A DNA stretch of 34,016 nt, from positions 1-34,016 of IMG/VR virus record IMGVR_UViG_3300025616_000026. One strand, written 5' to 3'. Shown here one piece after another: positions 4,439 to 32,403 of this stretch. The position numbers and the translations under genes are program-made. How positions within the stretch are numbered: the stretch's first letter is position 1; the number at the start of each line of letters is the position of its first letter. The stretch is from a virus. The notes below the pieces were generated by a model. That model was not told the origin of the DNA. It ran no database searches and worked only from the letters and a program-made list of their open reading frames with translations.

Positions 4439-5668
4439 TTAAGATGCAATACGGCAAGCCAACTCAGGATAGAGTGGGGCCCAACCATATAGAACATCCA
4501 AGCGAGTAGGAATCGAGTCATTGTTAATAGTGTATTGACGAACTACACGCATTGACAGACCAATTTCTTTATCGGAGGCACGACCAGCAAAATGTACACC
4601 TTCAGGCAATTCAAGATCGGCTACTGCGAGAGTAAACGCATTTTTGTGCATGAGGATGTTTTGTGGGCTAGTTACACCAGTTTTGTTAAAAAAGGCTACA
4701 GCTTGTGCGCCTGAACTTGTTACGCTGATGTTTTGGAACTGACCAGCAGAAATAGGAGCAGGAGAAACATTGACAGTAATAGTCGCATCAGTACCGCTAA
4801 CAGCAGTATTAACTACGAAATTACGCAACTTGCCATAAGACTGACGATTTTGTGGGTTGACAGCGAAAACACCAGCGATAGTAAATGTATCACCTTGGTT
4901 TAAGCTAACAGCACCACTAGCAATCACAGCGATATTAGCAGAGGAAGCCCAACCTGAAGTCAAGAAGCCAGTAGCTGTAGTCACATTGACTGTAGCTGTT
5001 CCAGCAAATGAGCCGTAAGTTTGGTTCACAATGTTTTGATCCATCTTCCAGTTCATACCAGCAGAATCACGACCCATCAAACCTTTACGATATTGAGTAG
5101 AAATCGCTTCTTGTGGCACAAATAGACCTTTCAAGCTATCTACAATAGTAGCGCTTGAGAATGGATCAATAATGACTGATCTACGACCATCACGAGGAGC
5201 GCCTTCAGAATCAAGGTAAGCACCAGCGTTCAAGAAGGTAATCAAGCCTGTTGGAGGAGTTCCTGCTGTTCCTACTGTGTTGTAAGTAGCATTTTTAGCC
5301 ATTGTCAAACCATCTAAGTCGATTTTGTTGGCAATAGCGGCAACTGCTGGCTTCAAAACACGATCAGAGAACATATCCAAAGACAAAGCTAAGTCTTGAG
5401 TTGTGAATTGTGTGTCCACATGGAACTGAGTTGAAAGGGTTACAGGAACTGAAGTTTCGTTGAAATCTTCAACATTCAATGCAGGACCAGTTGTACCGAT
5501 GAAACGACCAGGTCTACGGACATTGACTGTGTTACCAATCTTTGCACCGACTACAGCAAACTGGTCATCATAGTTACGATCTACTTCTGAAGTGAATGTT
5601 AGTTCGTTTTCCAAGACCATCAACGCTTCGTTGGTGATCTTGCTAATGGTTAATAAAGTATTGCTCAT
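4439..5668 (-). CDS. Major capsid (coat) protein, P22 gene 5 family
   Basis: The 409-aa protein is close to P22 coat (430 aa). The N-terminus (NTLLTISKITNEALMVLENE, then a YDDQFA-x-x-GAKIGNTV-x-VRRP stretch) and the SLDMFSDRVLKPAVAAIANK helix near residues 96-115 are typical of the P22 coat family of HK97-fold proteins. The middle (about 215-330) is Thr/Val-rich and probably holds the inserted beta domain of this family. Hundreds of copies form the icosahedral shell around the scaffold encoded just upstream. AAGGA lies nine bases before the ATG. Confidence 0.93.
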   Translation of the reverse strand: MSNTLLTISKITNEALMVLENELTFTSEVDRNYDDQFAVVGAKIGNTVNVRRPGRFIGTTGPALNVEDFNETSVPVTLSTQFHVDTQFTTQDLALSLDMFSDRVLKPAVAAIANKIDLDGLTMAKNATYNTVGTAGTPPTGLITFLNAGAYLDSEGAPRDGRRSVIIDPFSSATIVDSLKGLFVPQEAISTQYRKGLMGRDSAGMNWKMDQNIVNQTYGSFAGTATVNVTTATGFLTSGWASSANIAVIASGAVSLNQGDTFTIAGVFAVNPQNRQSYGKLRNFVVNTAVSGTDATITVNVSPAPISAGQFQNISVTSSGAQAVAFFNKTGVTSPQNILMHKNAFTLAVADLELPEGVHFAGRASDKEIGLSMRVVRQYTINNDSIPTRLDVLYGWAPLYPELACRIAS

Positions 5669-12224: not shown

Positions 12225-12498
12225 GAAGTTTCACTAAACGAATTGCACCATCAATATCATTAATTCTAACAACAGTTGAGCCTCTCCAGTTAAGCATAAA
12301 TAATTCTTGAGCTGGAGTGTATGAAGCCTTTTCTGATGATTTAATTTCCACTAATACAGTTTTGTGATTTTTTCCTAACATCAGATCAGGAAACCCACCA
12401 GCAACCCTACTACAGTCAAATACTGAGCAACCTAACTGTTTAAATACTTTAATAATCTCAGATTGATTTACATCAACCTTTTTTGCATACTTACTCAT
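12205..12498 (-). CDS. VRR-NUC domain nuclease
   Basis: The 97-aa protein is almost entirely a VRR-NUC domain of the PD-(D/E)xK superfamily. GGFPDLM gives D38, VEIK gives E51 and K53, and the following S-Y-T-P-A-Q-E-L supplies the downstream helix with Q64. Phage members of this size are thought to cut branched DNA such as Holliday junctions. It overlaps the HNH nuclease gene by 8 bp, suggesting a joint role in resolving recombination intermediates before packaging. Confidence 0.88.
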   Translation of the reverse strand: MSKYAKKVDVNQSEIIKVFKQLGCSVFDCSRVAGGFPDLMLGKNHKTVLVEIKSSEKASYTPAQELFMLNWRGSTVVRINDIDGAIRLVKLLDNANQ

Positions 12499-12778
12499 CT
12501 AATAATTCTCTAACTTTATCAATGAGATCCTCTTGTGAATACCCCCAATAAGAAGTGAACTTTTTAGCCCCAGCGAGGTGAATACTGGTATCTCCAAGTC
12601 GGTGATGCTCTGCGCACAAAGGGATAACGGGACTGAGGTGTCTTGGCATGCCAAATCGCCTGCAATGGTGCATTTCAACGGGTGAATCATCTAAATTCCT
12701 AATATCTATCTGTCTGCATAAAATACACCCAATACGGGAAAGTTTAAGATAAACATTCTTTTCTTCTTTAGTTGCCAT
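12491..12778 (-). CDS. Ref-like HNH nuclease
   Basis: The 95-aa protein has C18-x2-C21, a VEMHHC motif (34-39), and IPLCAEHHRLGDTSIH (52-67), the Cys/His pattern of the RecA-dependent nuclease Ref of phage P1 and its short phage relatives. P1 Ref cuts DNA at RecA-made D-loops; this protein is shorter than P1 Ref and covers mainly the nuclease domain. Whether it needs host RecA is inferred from the family. Confidence 0.82.
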   Translation of the reverse strand: MATKEEKNVYLKLSRIGCILCRQIDIRNLDDSPVEMHHCRRFGMPRHLSPVIPLCAEHHRLGDTSIHLAGAKKFTSYWGYSQEDLIDKVRELLDE

Positions 12779-14758: not shown

Positions 14759-14949
14759 TTCCATTCTCCTTTTTCATCAGCTTTATTTCCTTTTAACCAT
14801 TGATCTTCAAAATCCCTTAACAACTCCCAACCTAGCTTTTCCTTATGCTTGTGCATATATTCCCTAAAAGCCTTTAAACCCCAAATCCTGCGCCACATAA
14901 TAAGTTGGCGAACAGCGCATTGATGGCAATGTTTTGCTTCATTTTTCAA
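14755..14949 (-). CDS. Hypothetical protein with C-x2-C, TTG start
   Basis: The 64-aa protein starts at TTG (14949), overlapping the CmoA-like gene by 11 bp. It has CHQC near residues 8-11 followed by a basic, Trp-rich helix (MWRRIWGLKAFREYMHKHKE) and a WELLRDFEDQW segment. An ATG nearby opens only a 22-codon ORF in another frame. DNA or metal binding is possible; function unknown. Confidence 0.6.
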   Translation of the reverse strand: MKNEAKHCHQCAVRQLIMWRRIWGLKAFREYMHKHKEKLGWELLRDFEDQWLKGNKADEKGEWK

Positions 14950-15577
14950 TTACCCATCCCTTGAATTCACCAAGCTGAAAAAATTGTTTTGCATTTAAAG
15001 GCATTTTTATGGGTCTTTGTATTCCTGAAAGGCTTAATTCTTTATTTAAAATATCTTCAGGTTTAGCGCCATTTTTAAGTTTCCAATACATTGTTAAGCG
15101 CTTCATGACTGTTGAAAAATACCCTTCTTCATCACAAACCTTATCAACTACGATGATTGCTCCACCTTTATTCATTTTTTGATACAATCTCTCAATAAAC
15201 GCTTCTTGACCAATAACAGGAAAAAACATAGTTGTAAGCATCAAAATGGCTACATCAAACGATTGATATTGATGTTGCATCGCATCACAAGATTGAACTT
15301 CATAGCAATGCTTGGTATTAAATTTATAAGCCTCGCACATTTCATCACTTTCATCTAAAGCAATAATCTTGGCATTTCTTTCATTTATTAAATCTTTTAG
15401 TGCCAATGTCATGTTTCCAGTTGAGCAACCAATGTCATACACAAGACCATTTTTAGGTAAATAGTTTCTTGTTATATAAGAAACAGACTCAGTAACCAAT
15501 TCATACCAAGGCAACTGTTCCCGAACATGAGAATCAAATTTACTAGCAAACCCTTCTTTAAAACTCCAATCTTTCAT
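14939..15577 (-). CDS. SAM-dependent methyltransferase, CmoA-like
   Basis: The 212-aa class I methyltransferase has motif I VYDIGCSTG (46-54), an acidic end of strand 2 in IALDES (72-77) and NKGGAIIVVDK (about 136-146) as post-motif III. The order and the N-terminal F-D-S-H-V-R-E-Q-L-P-W-Y segment resemble CmoA, which modifies tRNA wobble uridine using carboxy-SAM. The phage protein is shorter and its actual substrate is uncertain; tRNA, another RNA, or a small molecule are all possible. It overlaps the C5 methyltransferase gene by ATGA, and AAAGG precedes the start. Confidence 0.8.
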   Translation of the reverse strand: MKDWSFKEGFASKFDSHVREQLPWYELVTESVSYITRNYLPKNGLVYDIGCSTGNMTLALKDLINERNAKIIALDESDEMCEAYKFNTKHCYEVQSCDAMQHQYQSFDVAILMLTTMFFPVIGQEAFIERLYQKMNKGGAIIVVDKVCDEEGYFSTVMKRLTMYWKLKNGAKPEDILNKELSLSGIQRPIKMPLNAKQFFQLGEFKGWVIEK

Positions 15578-16674
15578 AATGGCAACCTTTTAGCAATTTC
15601 ATAAATTACATTGACAGTTACAGCTCTACCGCAACGCTCATATCTTTGAGCATCGCCAACCAAAGATCCATCTGCATACCATTTAGTCCAGTTATCAGGC
15701 AATGATTGGAGTCTTTCACACTCTAATGGGGTTAATTTTCTTAAAGTTGACCCAACAATTACCCCATGCCTATCTTGTGCTGTAACTGTAAAAGCTACTT
15801 CATTATGATTTTTAATTTGCCTGCCATTTTGTCTTTTTTCTTTGCGATCAGGAGTTAATACAGCTCTAACTTCAGATCCGATATATGGGACATTATTTCC
15901 ACCTGTTCCCATATTTGCAGTCAAAGTTGGAGCATAAGCACCTTTTATATCCCTGAAATGGGTTCTTCTCCATTGAGTTGCCCGAACAAATCCATCTGAC
16001 TTGTATTGATCCCCTTCATCAATAACGGCTCTTGTTCCCCCGCCTTTGTAATAGTGTCCGTCAATCGTTGGTAAATAACTTGTCCGAATCCGTTTCCTTT
16101 TTCCTTGTGTTTCTTGGTTCTCTCCACCATCCTCTGCAAAGCACCTTCCGACAGGAAATACTTTGGGAGGGGGTTTTCCTCTAAGATGCCCGACAATAAA
16201 CACTCTTTCCCGATTCTGTGGGACTCCAAAATTCTTGCTGTTAAGACATTCCCATTGGCAGTCATACCCCAATTCATCCAAGCTGGAAAGGATGACTGCA
16301 AAGGTTCTTCCTCCGTCATGGTTGAGGAGTCCTTTAACATTTTCAAGGAAAAAATATGGGATTCTTTTACCAGCGAGGATTCTACAGATTTCAAAAAAGA
16401 GAGTGCCTCGTGTATCTTCTGTTCCGAATCCTGTTCTTCTTCCAGCAACTGAAAAAGTTGCACATGGAAATCCTCCAACGAGTAAATCGGCTTGTGGGAT
16501 TTCATCAGGTTGAATGATTCTGATATCTCTTGGGTCGGGTTTGTCTTTAAAGTTATGTTCATAAATTCTCCTTGCTTTATCTTCTATTTCATTTGACCAA
16601 ACGCACTCATGACCCGCTTTTTCAAGACCAAGCCTAAAACCACCAATTCCAGCAAATAATTCAATAAATTTCAT
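15574..16674 (-). CDS. DNA cytosine-5 methyltransferase
   Basis: The 366-aa enzyme shows the C5-MTase motifs in order: I FAGIGG (7-12), IV GFPCATFS with catalytic C71, VI ENVKG (111-115), VIII QNRERVFIVG (153-162), a variable recognition region (about 165-305), and the end motifs (LTPLECERLQSLPDNW, then CGRAVTVNV, where Asn is more usual than Arg). It probably methylates phage DNA to evade host restriction; the site is unknown. Base use at 16.0-16.5 kb looks richer in G+C than its neighbours. A second long frame is nested inside (15945-16562). Confidence 0.93.
   Translation of the reverse strand: MKFIELFAGIGGFRLGLEKAGHECVWSNEIEDKARRIYEHNFKDKPDPRDIRIIQPDEIPQADLLVGGFPCATFSVAGRRTGFGTEDTRGTLFFEICRILAGKRIPYFFLENVKGLLNHDGGRTFAVILSSLDELGYDCQWECLNSKNFGVPQNRERVFIVGHLRGKPPPKVFPVGRCFAEDGGENQETQGKRKRIRTSYLPTIDGHYYKGGGTRAVIDEGDQYKSDGFVRATQWRRTHFRDIKGAYAPTLTANMGTGGNNVPYIGSEVRAVLTPDRKEKRQNGRQIKNHNEVAFTVTAQDRHGVIVGSTLRKLTPLECERLQSLPDNWTKWYADGSLVGDAQRYERCGRAVTVNVIYEIAKRLPL
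15945..16562 (-). CDS. Nested gene in another frame of the methyltransferase
   Basis: A 205-aa ORF lies entirely within the C5-MTase gene, same strand, different frame. Its ATG has a perfect SD, AAGGAG, five bases upstream; the outer frame spells the SD with the Arg codons AGG-AGA. Residues about 115-145 read GKECLLSGILEENPLPKYFL and then SEGALQRM. From memory this resembles a family of phage hypothetical proteins with 'SLS-x-x-LE...P-x-KYFLS-x-x-A-x-x-x-L+R' that are themselves found in or beside C5-MTase genes. Function unknown. The SD, length and family-like pattern support translation; it may still be a shadow frame. Confidence 0.55.
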   Translation of the reverse strand: MNITLKTNPTQEISESFNLMKSHKPIYSLEDFHVQLFQLLEEEQDSEQKIHEALSFLKSVESSLVKESHIFSLKMLKDSSTMTEEEPLQSSFPAWMNWGMTANGNVLTARILESHRIGKECLLSGILEENPLPKYFLSEGALQRMVERTKKHKEKGNGFGQVIYQRLTDTITKAGEQEPLLMKGINTSQMDLFGQLNGEEPISGI

Positions 16675-17738: not shown

Positions 17739-17936
17739 TTAGTCCTTTTTGAAAAGATCAGGTCTAAGTTGTTCTCTAGTCAATTTGTAATCTGTCAGCT
17801 CCTCAATAGCCTTTAAATACTTAAATGGAATCTTTGTTTGACCCCATAAATAAACAGTATTTGGCTTTAAACCCAACTTTTCAGCCAAATCTTTAAGCTG
17901 ACCGAACTCAATTCGTAATAAATCCATTGGACTCAT
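17739..17936 (-). CDS. Cro/YdaS-like HTH regulator
   Basis: The 65-aa protein starts at ATG 17936 with AGGGAG six bases upstream; a longer frame to 17990 would run through the promoter region. The helix-turn-helix reads LKDLAEKLGLKPNTVYLWGQ (about 14-33), followed by KIPFKYLKAIEELTDYKLTREQL, typical of YdaS/Cro-like regulators of phages. It is the first leftward gene beside the divergent operators, so it should repress or switch that region. No CI partner is seen. Confidence 0.82.
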   Translation of the reverse strand: MSPMDLLRIEFGQLKDLAEKLGLKPNTVYLWGQTKIPFKYLKAIEELTDYKLTREQLRPDLFKKD

Positions 17937-17959
17937 GTATTTCTCCCTAAAAGTTATAC

Positions 17960-18000
17960 CATCATACATTATTTGCAAAACATCATACAATTATTTGTAT
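17960..18000. promoter_or_regulatory. Tandem operator sites in the divergent control region
   Basis: ATACAATTATTTGTAT (17985-18000) is a perfect palindrome with 6-bp arms around TTAT. A near copy, ATACATTATTTGCA, is at 17964-17977. Both are preceded by CATCATACA (17960-17968 and 17981-17989), a 21-bp period equal to two helical turns. They lie over the leftward promoter, as expected for sites bound by the adjacent Cro-like protein. Confidence 0.65.
17961..17990 (-). promoter_or_regulatory. Candidate leftward early promoter
   Basis: On the minus strand TTGTAT (17985-17990) and TATGAT (17961-17966) are 18 bp apart. The -35 is one arm of the perfect palindrome and the -10 touches the second operator copy, so binding there would block transcription of the Cro-like gene and the long leftward unit. 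Confidence 0.5.
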
Positions 18001-21716: not shown

Positions 21717-22138
21717 TTCTTAATTTCAGTTTCCGCTACTTTAGCCCTGTCCTTCATGCCCATAATCTTTTCTAAAGACCGGCCACCAAAGTAAGCTGTC
21801 ATCACTAACATCCCCCATTGACCTAATAGTTCTACATAAGCTGATTTAGTTTCTATGTCAAACATGGACATAAACGCAAAGAATGAATACGCAAATAGAA
21901 TAAAGATAAGGGTTAAAGGGCGAATGTTATTAGCTAACCATGAATCACTAGCCATATCCGCTTGCCAACGCTTAGTCACCTCTTGCTGTTCGGCAATGTC
22001 GGCATTGATTTGGGCTAGTTCCCCATTTTGTTGCATTTGCAACAGTTCTAGTTGGGCTTTGGCTTTTTGTTCGGGGTCAGGAAAGAACTTGTCAACTAGT
22101 TTCATTCCTACATCAAAGATAGCGGCTAATGGGAACAT
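21713..22138 (-). CDS. Holin, GTA three-TM type
   Basis: The 141-aa protein begins with an amphipathic region (FPLAAIFDVGMKLVDKFFPDPEQKAKAQLE), has a Gln-rich helix, then NNIRPLTLIFILFAYSFFAF as the main membrane helix and a second hydrophobic stretch near GMLVMTAYFGGRS. This is the layout of 'holin of 3TMs, for gene-transfer release' proteins. It is followed directly by the endolysin. It would permeabilise the inner membrane at lysis. Confidence 0.88.
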   Translation of the reverse strand: MFPLAAIFDVGMKLVDKFFPDPEQKAKAQLELLQMQQNGELAQINADIAEQQEVTKRWQADMASDSWLANNIRPLTLIFILFAYSFFAFMSMFDIETKSAYVELLGQWGMLVMTAYFGGRSLEKIMGMKDRAKVAETEIKK

Positions 22139-22677
22139 TATCTATACCCCGATATTCTAGGTGAAAAAACAAAAGTAGCTTGGTATGGGTTTGGTTTGGG
22201 ATTTACATTAGGGTCAGCTAAAGCAAAAATATTATGGCCAAAATTACAATAGATACACCGACTAAATCCGATTGGGAAAACCCAACGGAATTGAAATAAG
22301 CCGTTAGCAGTAACAAAACACCAACCAGCTTTTGCGTTATCGTTATCTTTGATTGAAATATCGCCTTTAACAACGACTGCATAAGGGTCAGAAAGGTATT
22401 TAAGCGAAAAAGAATATAAAGGATTGCGCCGCAGCCACTTAACTTTAGCAAAATATCCAGTTCCATTGATTCTTTCAAAAGTAGCATCACCATCTAATGA
22501 ATTGTCGGGGGTCATAAACCAATTTAACCAAGACGGCAATACAGGGCCTATGCCACGCTTTGCATGATTGTCTAACCACCATTCCTTTTGTACGGCAAAG
22601 ACGGGTAATACAGGGGCTAAAATGACCGCTATTAGTGTTAGCAATAAGCTAATCGGAACTAATAGGATGTAGGTCAT
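22138..22677 (-). CDS. Hypothetical membrane-anchored protein of the lysis region
   Basis: The 179-aa protein has an N-terminal membrane segment (about 3-28) and then LPSWLNWFMTPDNSLDGD, a motif I associate with a widespread phage family of unknown function found near lysis or tail genes. The C-terminal part is rich in aromatic residues and beta strands. AAAGG lies seven bases before the ATG. Its role in lysis is inferred from position only. Confidence 0.75.
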   Translation of the reverse strand: MTYILLVPISLLLTLIAVILAPVLPVFAVQKEWWLDNHAKRGIGPVLPSWLNWFMTPDNSLDGDATFERINGTGYFAKVKWLRRNPLYSFSLKYLSDPYAVVVKGDISIKDNDNAKAGWCFVTANGLFQFRWVFPIGFSRCIYCNFGHNIFALADPNVNPKPNPYQATFVFSPRISGYR

Positions 22678-31206: not shown

Positions 31207-32403
31207 CTATCTAAAGAATCCACCATTCAAGATCCAGCCTGCGTCTTTTTGACGGCTAGAAAGCATTGCATCAGCAAATTGGGCTGTTTGTGCTGGTTTC
31301 ATATTGGTGCGTTTAAGAGTGGCTTTAGCTTGAGAAGCATAAGCATTAATCATTGTAATTTGCGTCTGTGATGCTTTGCCATACATAGGCATTAATCGCT
31401 CTGCTAAACACCATCTAAGAGCCATTGAATAGCCTTGTGGAAGCACTATATCGTCATACATAGTTCCATAATTGCTAAACAATGTTTGTGCAAACAAATG
31501 AACTTCGCCTTGTGAAGGATTAGGCCATAAAAATACATTTCCTGATTGTTCGCCAGCATTAAAATAAACTGCTTTTGGCCATGGACCATTTAAGGTTTTT
31601 AAGCCAATGGAATTATAATTATCTAAAGCCAAAACTGCCATTTGGTAATCTAAACCACCATTAGCAATAGGTTGACCATTAGAATTAGTATTTACCCTAA
31701 CATAAGCAGAATCAATACCTAATGGTTTTTGATAGTAAGCAGTAATCGTAGATGCTACGATTGTTCCTGTAATGGTTGTAGAAGCGACTGTTTGAGAAGC
31801 GCTTACTGTATAAGTTCCAGTTCCACCAGTTCCAGTTATTAAAGCTGAAATAGTAGTTCCAGCAGTAACCCCAGTTCCACTAATGACAGAACCAATATTG
31901 ACAGCTCCTGAAGCAATAGCCGTTACTGTTAGGGTTGTACCTGATATAGAACCAGTAAATACAGGGGTTTGCGTTTCCTGAACTTTATTAAGCAAGTAAG
32001 TGCCTTGCTCATTTACATTACCACCAGCGCCTGTTAAAGATCTAACAATTTGTGTTCCAGCAGTAATACTTTGACCTTTAAGATATTGTCCTTGAGCTAC
32101 AGCTCCTGAATTAATGCCAGTAACAGTTAAAACATTACCTGAAAAAGTACCAGTAAAGGAAGCTCCAATAAAATTAGCTGTAGATGGATCAGGGCCAATT
32201 GTGTATTGAACTTGACCAGCAATAACTGGGAAAATGATCTCAGTTATATTGAAAACCATCATATCCTCATTTGACCATTGGTCTATAAGGTCATTCATCA
32301 TTTCAAAAGCATCTCTAGCGGAATCGGCTGAAGGCTGTTCTCCAGCTTCCAAAGCCCCAATGTCTTTTAAGGATCTGCTAATGATGTCAATCGGCTTTGT
32401 CAT
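31207..32403 (-). CDS. Tail accessory factor, P22 gp4-like, with inserted repeats
   Basis: The 398-aa protein is much longer than P22 gp4 (166 aa). Residues 1-75 ([29 protein letters not shown]) and about 222-398 ([23 protein letters not shown]) carry the helical gp4 core that binds the portal. Residues about 83-147 and 148-214 are two beta modules of the type [19 protein letters not shown]...[13 protein letters not shown]. The second is nearly ideal. Similar modules are in the gp10-like protein encoded next. Confidence 0.85.

Follow-up and report, generated by a model that had tools for sequence, protein, structure and literature searches.

A gene nested in the +1 frame of a phage C5 cytosine methyltransferase gene is under purifying selection and may encode a small subunit of the enzyme

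The C5 cytosine methyltransferase gene (alpha) of a 34,016-base virus record from IMG/VR (the whole stretch of DNA analyzed here, called the window; G+C 38.5%) contains a same-strand ORF in its +1 frame, the product of which we call beta. Comparison with homologues shows that 15945-16562 is a real dual-coding gene under purifying selection. We favor the view that beta is probably the smaller partner in a C5 methyltransferase built from two polypeptides, where it would supply a structural segment and probably tether the enzyme to the host clamp. The 205-codon ORF and the AAGGAG five bases before its ATG are as the first-pass annotation had described them. The conserved dual-coding arrangement it had proposed is supported by phage homologues, by the open frame in these homologues and by the loss of synonymous change in the overlap.

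Table 1. Features of the methyltransferase gene and of the ORF nested in it (positions in the window)
Feature	Position	Strand	Basis
Alpha: C5 cytosine DNA methyltransferase, 366 aa, motifs I-X in frame 0	15574..16674	-	PF00145 E 6.8e-83 and motif positions
Beta: nested ORF in the +1 frame of the C5 methyltransferase, 205 aa, ATG start	15945..16562	-	phrog_16143 E 6.7e-33 and dual-coding tests
Shine-Dalgarno sequence AAGGAG, ATG of the nested ORF 5 bases further on	16568..16573	-	sequence; start and Shine-Dalgarno sequence kept in 30/33 relatives vs 41% under the null
Suppressed synonymous change, methyltransferase codons 54-236	15967..16515	-	best change points of synonymous rate
Conserved core of beta, residues 122-160, LLSGILEENPLPKYFLSEGALQRMVERTKKHKEKGNGFG	16083..16199	-	similarity to a segment that other C5 methyltransferases have in frame after motif VIII
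Sliding-clamp-binding-like pentapeptide QMDLF, residues 189-193 of beta	15984..15998	-	invariance of Q189 and F193, enrichment
Methyltransferase motif VIII, GVPQNRERVFIVG, in frame 0 and extending into the beginning of the nested core	16189..16227	-	motif positions
Methyltransferase motif IX, RKLTPLECERLQ, frame 0	15706-15741	-	motif positions

The nested ATG coincides with codon 38 of the methyltransferase gene. On the opposite strand the nested stretch is covered by two open frames with TTG starts, 16105-16452 (+) and 16163-16513 (+), each 115-116 codons long and probably a by-product of doubly constrained sequence. The C5 methyltransferase gene is followed, with a 4-base overlap, by a gene for a class I SAM methyltransferase (14939-15577 (-); phrog_4752, 'tRNA methyltransferase', E 1.2e-47), and a YdaS/Cro-like DNA-binding protein is encoded at 17739-17990 (-) (PF15943, E 5e-12). 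A P22-type coat protein (4439-5668 (-); PF11651, E 4.5e-40) and a SU10-adaptor-like protein (31207-32403 (-)) identify the record as that of a tailed phage. Further same-strand ORFs within longer ones in the window are 22218-22493 (-) in 22138-22677 (-) and 12499-12690 (-) in 12491-12778 (-).

Each of the 38 full-length homologues at or above 41% identity (41-100%) had 143-251 open codons in the +1 frame, compared with 20-75 in the +2 frame. Stops in most close homologues, which the first-pass annotation had named as a refutation, thus did not break the frame. Five methyltransferases at 26-29% identity had just 30-49 open codons in +1. When the synonymous codons of the window methyltransferase were shuffled, a +1 stretch of this length occurred with p ~0.001, and the +2 frame was unremarkable. 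Shuffles that kept the methyltransferase protein gave p values of 0.0005-0.0085 per gene in 14 genes and of 0.2-0.7 in control methyltransferases. Because the mean +1 stretch of a shuffled gene was already about 90 codons, a lone open +1 frame is not overwhelming; the weight lies in its repetition across divergent homologues.

Selection was analyzed with 33 relatives in 409 pairs, which are phylogenetically non-independent, so that the intervals are indicative: dSN/dSS was 0.34 (95% 0.25-0.49) in the overlap as against 1.02 (0.77-1.55) outside and 0.97 in the +2 frame. Hence changes silent in the methyltransferase but altering the nested protein were rarer in the overlap than changes silent in both frames. 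The loss of synonymous variation that had been anticipated for the overlap was found in the same relatives, the methyltransferase-frame rate being halved there (0.335 vs 0.62-0.66). Between methyltransferase codons 54 and 236 the rate fell from about 0.65 to about 0.3. Suppression set in near codon 54, later than the nested ATG at codon 38, and the first ~17 residues of the nested product therefore look unconstrained. At codons 168-198 the synonymous rate was merely 0.02-0.14, while nonsynonymous change was at its highest, up to 0.24, so that +1 is the constrained frame there. An independent set of 51 Streptococcus/Enterococcus/Listeria-type sequences gave a dS of 0.253 in the overlap and 0.51-0.60 outside. 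In this Streptococcus-type set dSN/dSS pointed in the same direction, but the interval was wide (0.30-1.42) because there are few doubly silent sites.

These data bear on the notion that there is no second protein, the open frame being due to codon usage and the low synonymous rate to RNA structure or another constraint. The long +1 stretches of shuffled genes speak for it, yet the constraint is frame-specific, recurs in two clades and matches the limits of the ORF, and the usual pattern is reversed at codons 168-198; we give this notion almost no credence. A mere shadow of frame-0 conservation was ruled out, as dS drops and the core varies in frame 0 but not in +1. A natural negative control was met in a Spirochaetaceae genome (G005, of L275), where three places had +1 similarity to the nested family with many stops and ended before the core, showing that shadow similarity can coexist with many stops.

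A start codon with a Shine-Dalgarno sequence was kept at alternate-frame index 37 or 46, the relatives without ATG at 37 having one at 46 with a Shine-Dalgarno sequence of its own. This conservation, at one of two places in nearly all relatives (Table 1), stands against a product made without a separate start by frameshifting from the methyltransferase frame into +1, so that motifs I-VIII would be joined to the core. The +1 core does continue naturally from motif VIII, as it does in frame in canonical enzymes. But suppression also affects about 115 codons preceding the core, needlessly if the shift were at motif VIII, and we consider frameshifting highly improbable. At one locus (L182, 618-1319 and 781-1953) alpha stops prematurely, with the nested frame extending through to the methyltransferase's C-terminal part; this could be a split arrangement, or be explained by a sequencing error or a natural frameshift.

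A search of the product against phage proteins, as the first-pass annotation had advised, yielded homologues in 232 phage records, and the match to phrog_16143 covered positions 11-134 of the 139 model positions. Matches were also found in 60 plasmid records, the weakest of which are in-frame matches to ordinary methyltransferases, and in species genomes of Streptococcus, Enterococcus, other Bacilli, Lachnospiraceae, Patescibacteria, Halorussus and a Thermoplasmata archaeon. With an HMM of the nested proteins, 171 of 181 loci were a +1 ORF within a C5 methyltransferase and nothing else, and the phage family with a 'SLS..LE...KYFLS...A' core that the first-pass annotation had named is indeed mostly nested in this way. 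Strict nesting was likewise seen at 74 of 75 loci in a second count. The nested element also occurs in the SPCQDLS methyltransferase subfamily (L089-L091, L188, L192), and phrog_1008 is a further nested family. No free-standing, non-nested family was present among the loci collected; phrog_1008, too, proved to be nested. In a sample of Bacillota C5 methyltransferases the element was a minority trait, found at one locus, in the genome used as the sample centre; alignment A1 was too diverse for a scan of the collection. The arrangement has not gone unseen, because phage records already label some copies 'beta subunit' or 'internal gene': depositors annotated it in Streptococcus phage MM1 1998 ('beta subunit'), in phage Lily ('g62 internal gene') and in the Streptococcus thermophilus phage P0091 (gp40). 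A literature search, mostly without subscription papers, found no paper analyzing the nested arrangement.

Canonical C5 methyltransferases encode LKDILEENVDEKYYLS within their main reading frame, about 27-50 residues past motif VIII in those in which this motif was locatable, and the nested core (ILEE..KYFLS) is similar to it. An HMM built only from nested proteins matched the in-frame post-motif-VIII segment of four methyltransferases (L052, L057, L070, L071) with E values of 3e-4 to 4e-6, a short resemblance. These four had not been chosen by core similarity, whereas three others (L092, L093, L095) were found because they matched. In canonical enzymes with the in-frame segment the +1 frame is closed there and full of stops. 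Frame 0 of the window methyltransferase reads differently at the post-motif-VIII stretch, and it is the nested product that appears to carry the segment. This is most naturally read as a segment displaced into another frame and now provided by a partner, which may have arisen through a compensated frameshift. The AlphaFold model of beta had a pLDDT of 55.5 and a pTM of 0.23, with only residues 121-150 confident (mean pLDDT 79-90), and that of alpha was weak as well (pLDDT 51.7). PDB profile and Foldseek searches found no solved relative by sequence or fold. Candidate remote homologies, to FR47 or YvfG (Pfam E 0.005-0.03, under the cut-off) and to PDB entries of designed PPR proteins (best E 1e-6, no stretch passing alone), were rejected as composition-driven.

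Among annotated relatives, the 'C5 methyltransferase beta subunit' of Streptococcus phage MM1 1998 (AAZ82426.1, phrog_16143) is likewise nested in the +1 frame of a C5 methyltransferase and has the same core. It differs in having 141 residues and QMTLF near its N-terminus, whereas QMDLF of the 205-residue window product lies in a C-terminal extension. Proteins of phrog_1008, labelled 'DNA methyltransferase', are encoded by +1 ORFs nested in short C5 methyltransferases without motif IX in their own frame (L310, L311, L312, L323). Like the window product they come from a +1 ORF in a C5 methyltransferase, and Lily g63 has a clamp-like QLTLF, but they belong to another methyltransferase subfamily. 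Their products (L310, L312, phage Lily g63) have a motif-IX-like end, 'E.IMGFPIGWTDL', which is missing from the window product, and the corresponding alpha lacks motif IX.

We take the small-subunit gene of M.EcoHK31I to be nested. In this naturally two-polypeptide C5 methyltransferase the conserved parts are divided over a large and a small chain, the small one holding motif IX (PMC3404938), and both are reported to be needed for activity, going by the title of a study cited there. The motif-IX split of phrog_1008 corresponds to the division of labor described there for M.EcoHK31I. In the window, by contrast, motifs IX and X remain in alpha, and what the nested product appears to carry is a post-motif-VIII segment. 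As motif IX is absent from the small polypeptide and lies in frame 0 instead, the window enzyme is not filed as M.EcoHK31I-type and the two are compared by function only. M.AquI also forms one enzyme from two polypeptides (PMC3404938), as proposed for the window, but is split in the variable region with IX-X in the small subunit, whereas the window alpha is complete.

The partner role of beta is supported by its near-strict nesting in C5 methyltransferases, by the likeness of the core to the canonical segment and by the motif-IX split in the related phrog_1008 family. Against a subunit counts that alpha has every motif including IX and X, and alpha might therefore work alone. Phage SpSL1 has an active m5C methyltransferase (PMC6755750), the gene of which contains an intact nested ORF with QMSLF; the case shows only that a methyltransferase with an intact nested ORF is active and is silent on the need for beta. 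The complete set of motifs would also suit a regulator of the methyltransferase, either an inhibitor or a folding chaperone, that is no structural part of the active enzyme. Such a protein would be matched in expression by sharing one gene, and its core, mimicking a methyltransferase segment, could compete for the same place. Yet the M.EcoHK31I precedent is a required subunit (PMC3404938), and alpha of the phrog_1008 type has no motif IX in its own frame, so that we regard a pure regulator as improbable. The first-pass annotation had guessed that the second protein modulates the enzyme or counters host defense; a role with the enzyme is likely, while for counter-defense as such there was no evidence here.

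The pentapeptide QMDLF fits the bacterial clamp-binding consensus QL[S/D]LF (PMC9690074), and Q189 and F193 were invariant across 29 window-clade sequences. A loose clamp pattern occurred in 27 of 51 nested-family clusters versus 0.88 expected, a count that overstates independence as clusters within a clade share ancestry; it was absent from frame 0 and rare in the other frames. The pattern had been noticed first and was tested afterwards on overlapping data. Window-clade products have the pentapeptide close to the C-terminus, those of the Streptococcus, Listeria, SPCQDLS and phrog_1008 types close to the N-terminus, and these different ends in different lineages argue for repeated selection for the motif. 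About half of the clusters are without it. The archaeal and Patescibacteria/Paceibacterota nested copies looked at (L226, L239, L229, L249, L252) had no pentapeptide. We conclude from the motif that QMDLF probably binds the host beta sliding clamp.

The enrichment would also fit a nested protein that is real but independent of the methyltransferase, i.e. a clamp-binding phage protein, for instance one hindering or redirecting host replication, parked in the methyltransferase gene; clamp-binding inhibitors such as SocB are known (PMC9690074). However, the element is nested in C5 methyltransferases of several subfamilies and almost never stands alone, its core resembles a C5 methyltransferase segment, and half of the families lack the motif. 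An independent clamp binder is thus unlikely, if still to be reckoned with.

In the subunit model that we prefer, the long frame would be translated into alpha, and an internal start at ATG 16562, read in the +1 frame, would give the 205-residue beta. The core of beta would provide in trans the segment that separates motif VIII from the target recognition domain in other C5 methyltransferases. Beta would bind alpha and be required for activity, and QMDLF would bind the host beta sliding clamp, whereby phage DNA would be methylated as it is replicated. Expression of beta, its binding to alpha, the need for it and the clamp contact are steps we infer. DNMT1, another C5 methyltransferase, is brought to the replication clamp PCNA (PMC9690074) and would be a comparable case if the window pentapeptide works; it is eukaryotic, and its clamp motif is on the enzyme itself rather than on a nested partner.

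Long same-strand overlaps of phage genes are usually dropped by annotation; the window case is backed by frame-specific selection, and loss of synonymous change at the overlap is seen in two clades. Nested copies range from Streptococcus phages to archaeal genomes, many of them unannotated. Should the nested protein prove to be a subunit, a methyltransferase expressed from a recoded gene would give wrong activity results; clamp binding by the pentapeptide, if real, would link phage methylation to replication. As a tentative generalization, to which we give somewhat less than an even chance, several C5 methyltransferase subfamilies of mobile elements may be heterodimers made from one stretch of DNA in two frames, where the nested subunit couples methylation to the bacterial replication clamp as a prokaryotic counterpart of DNMT1-PCNA.
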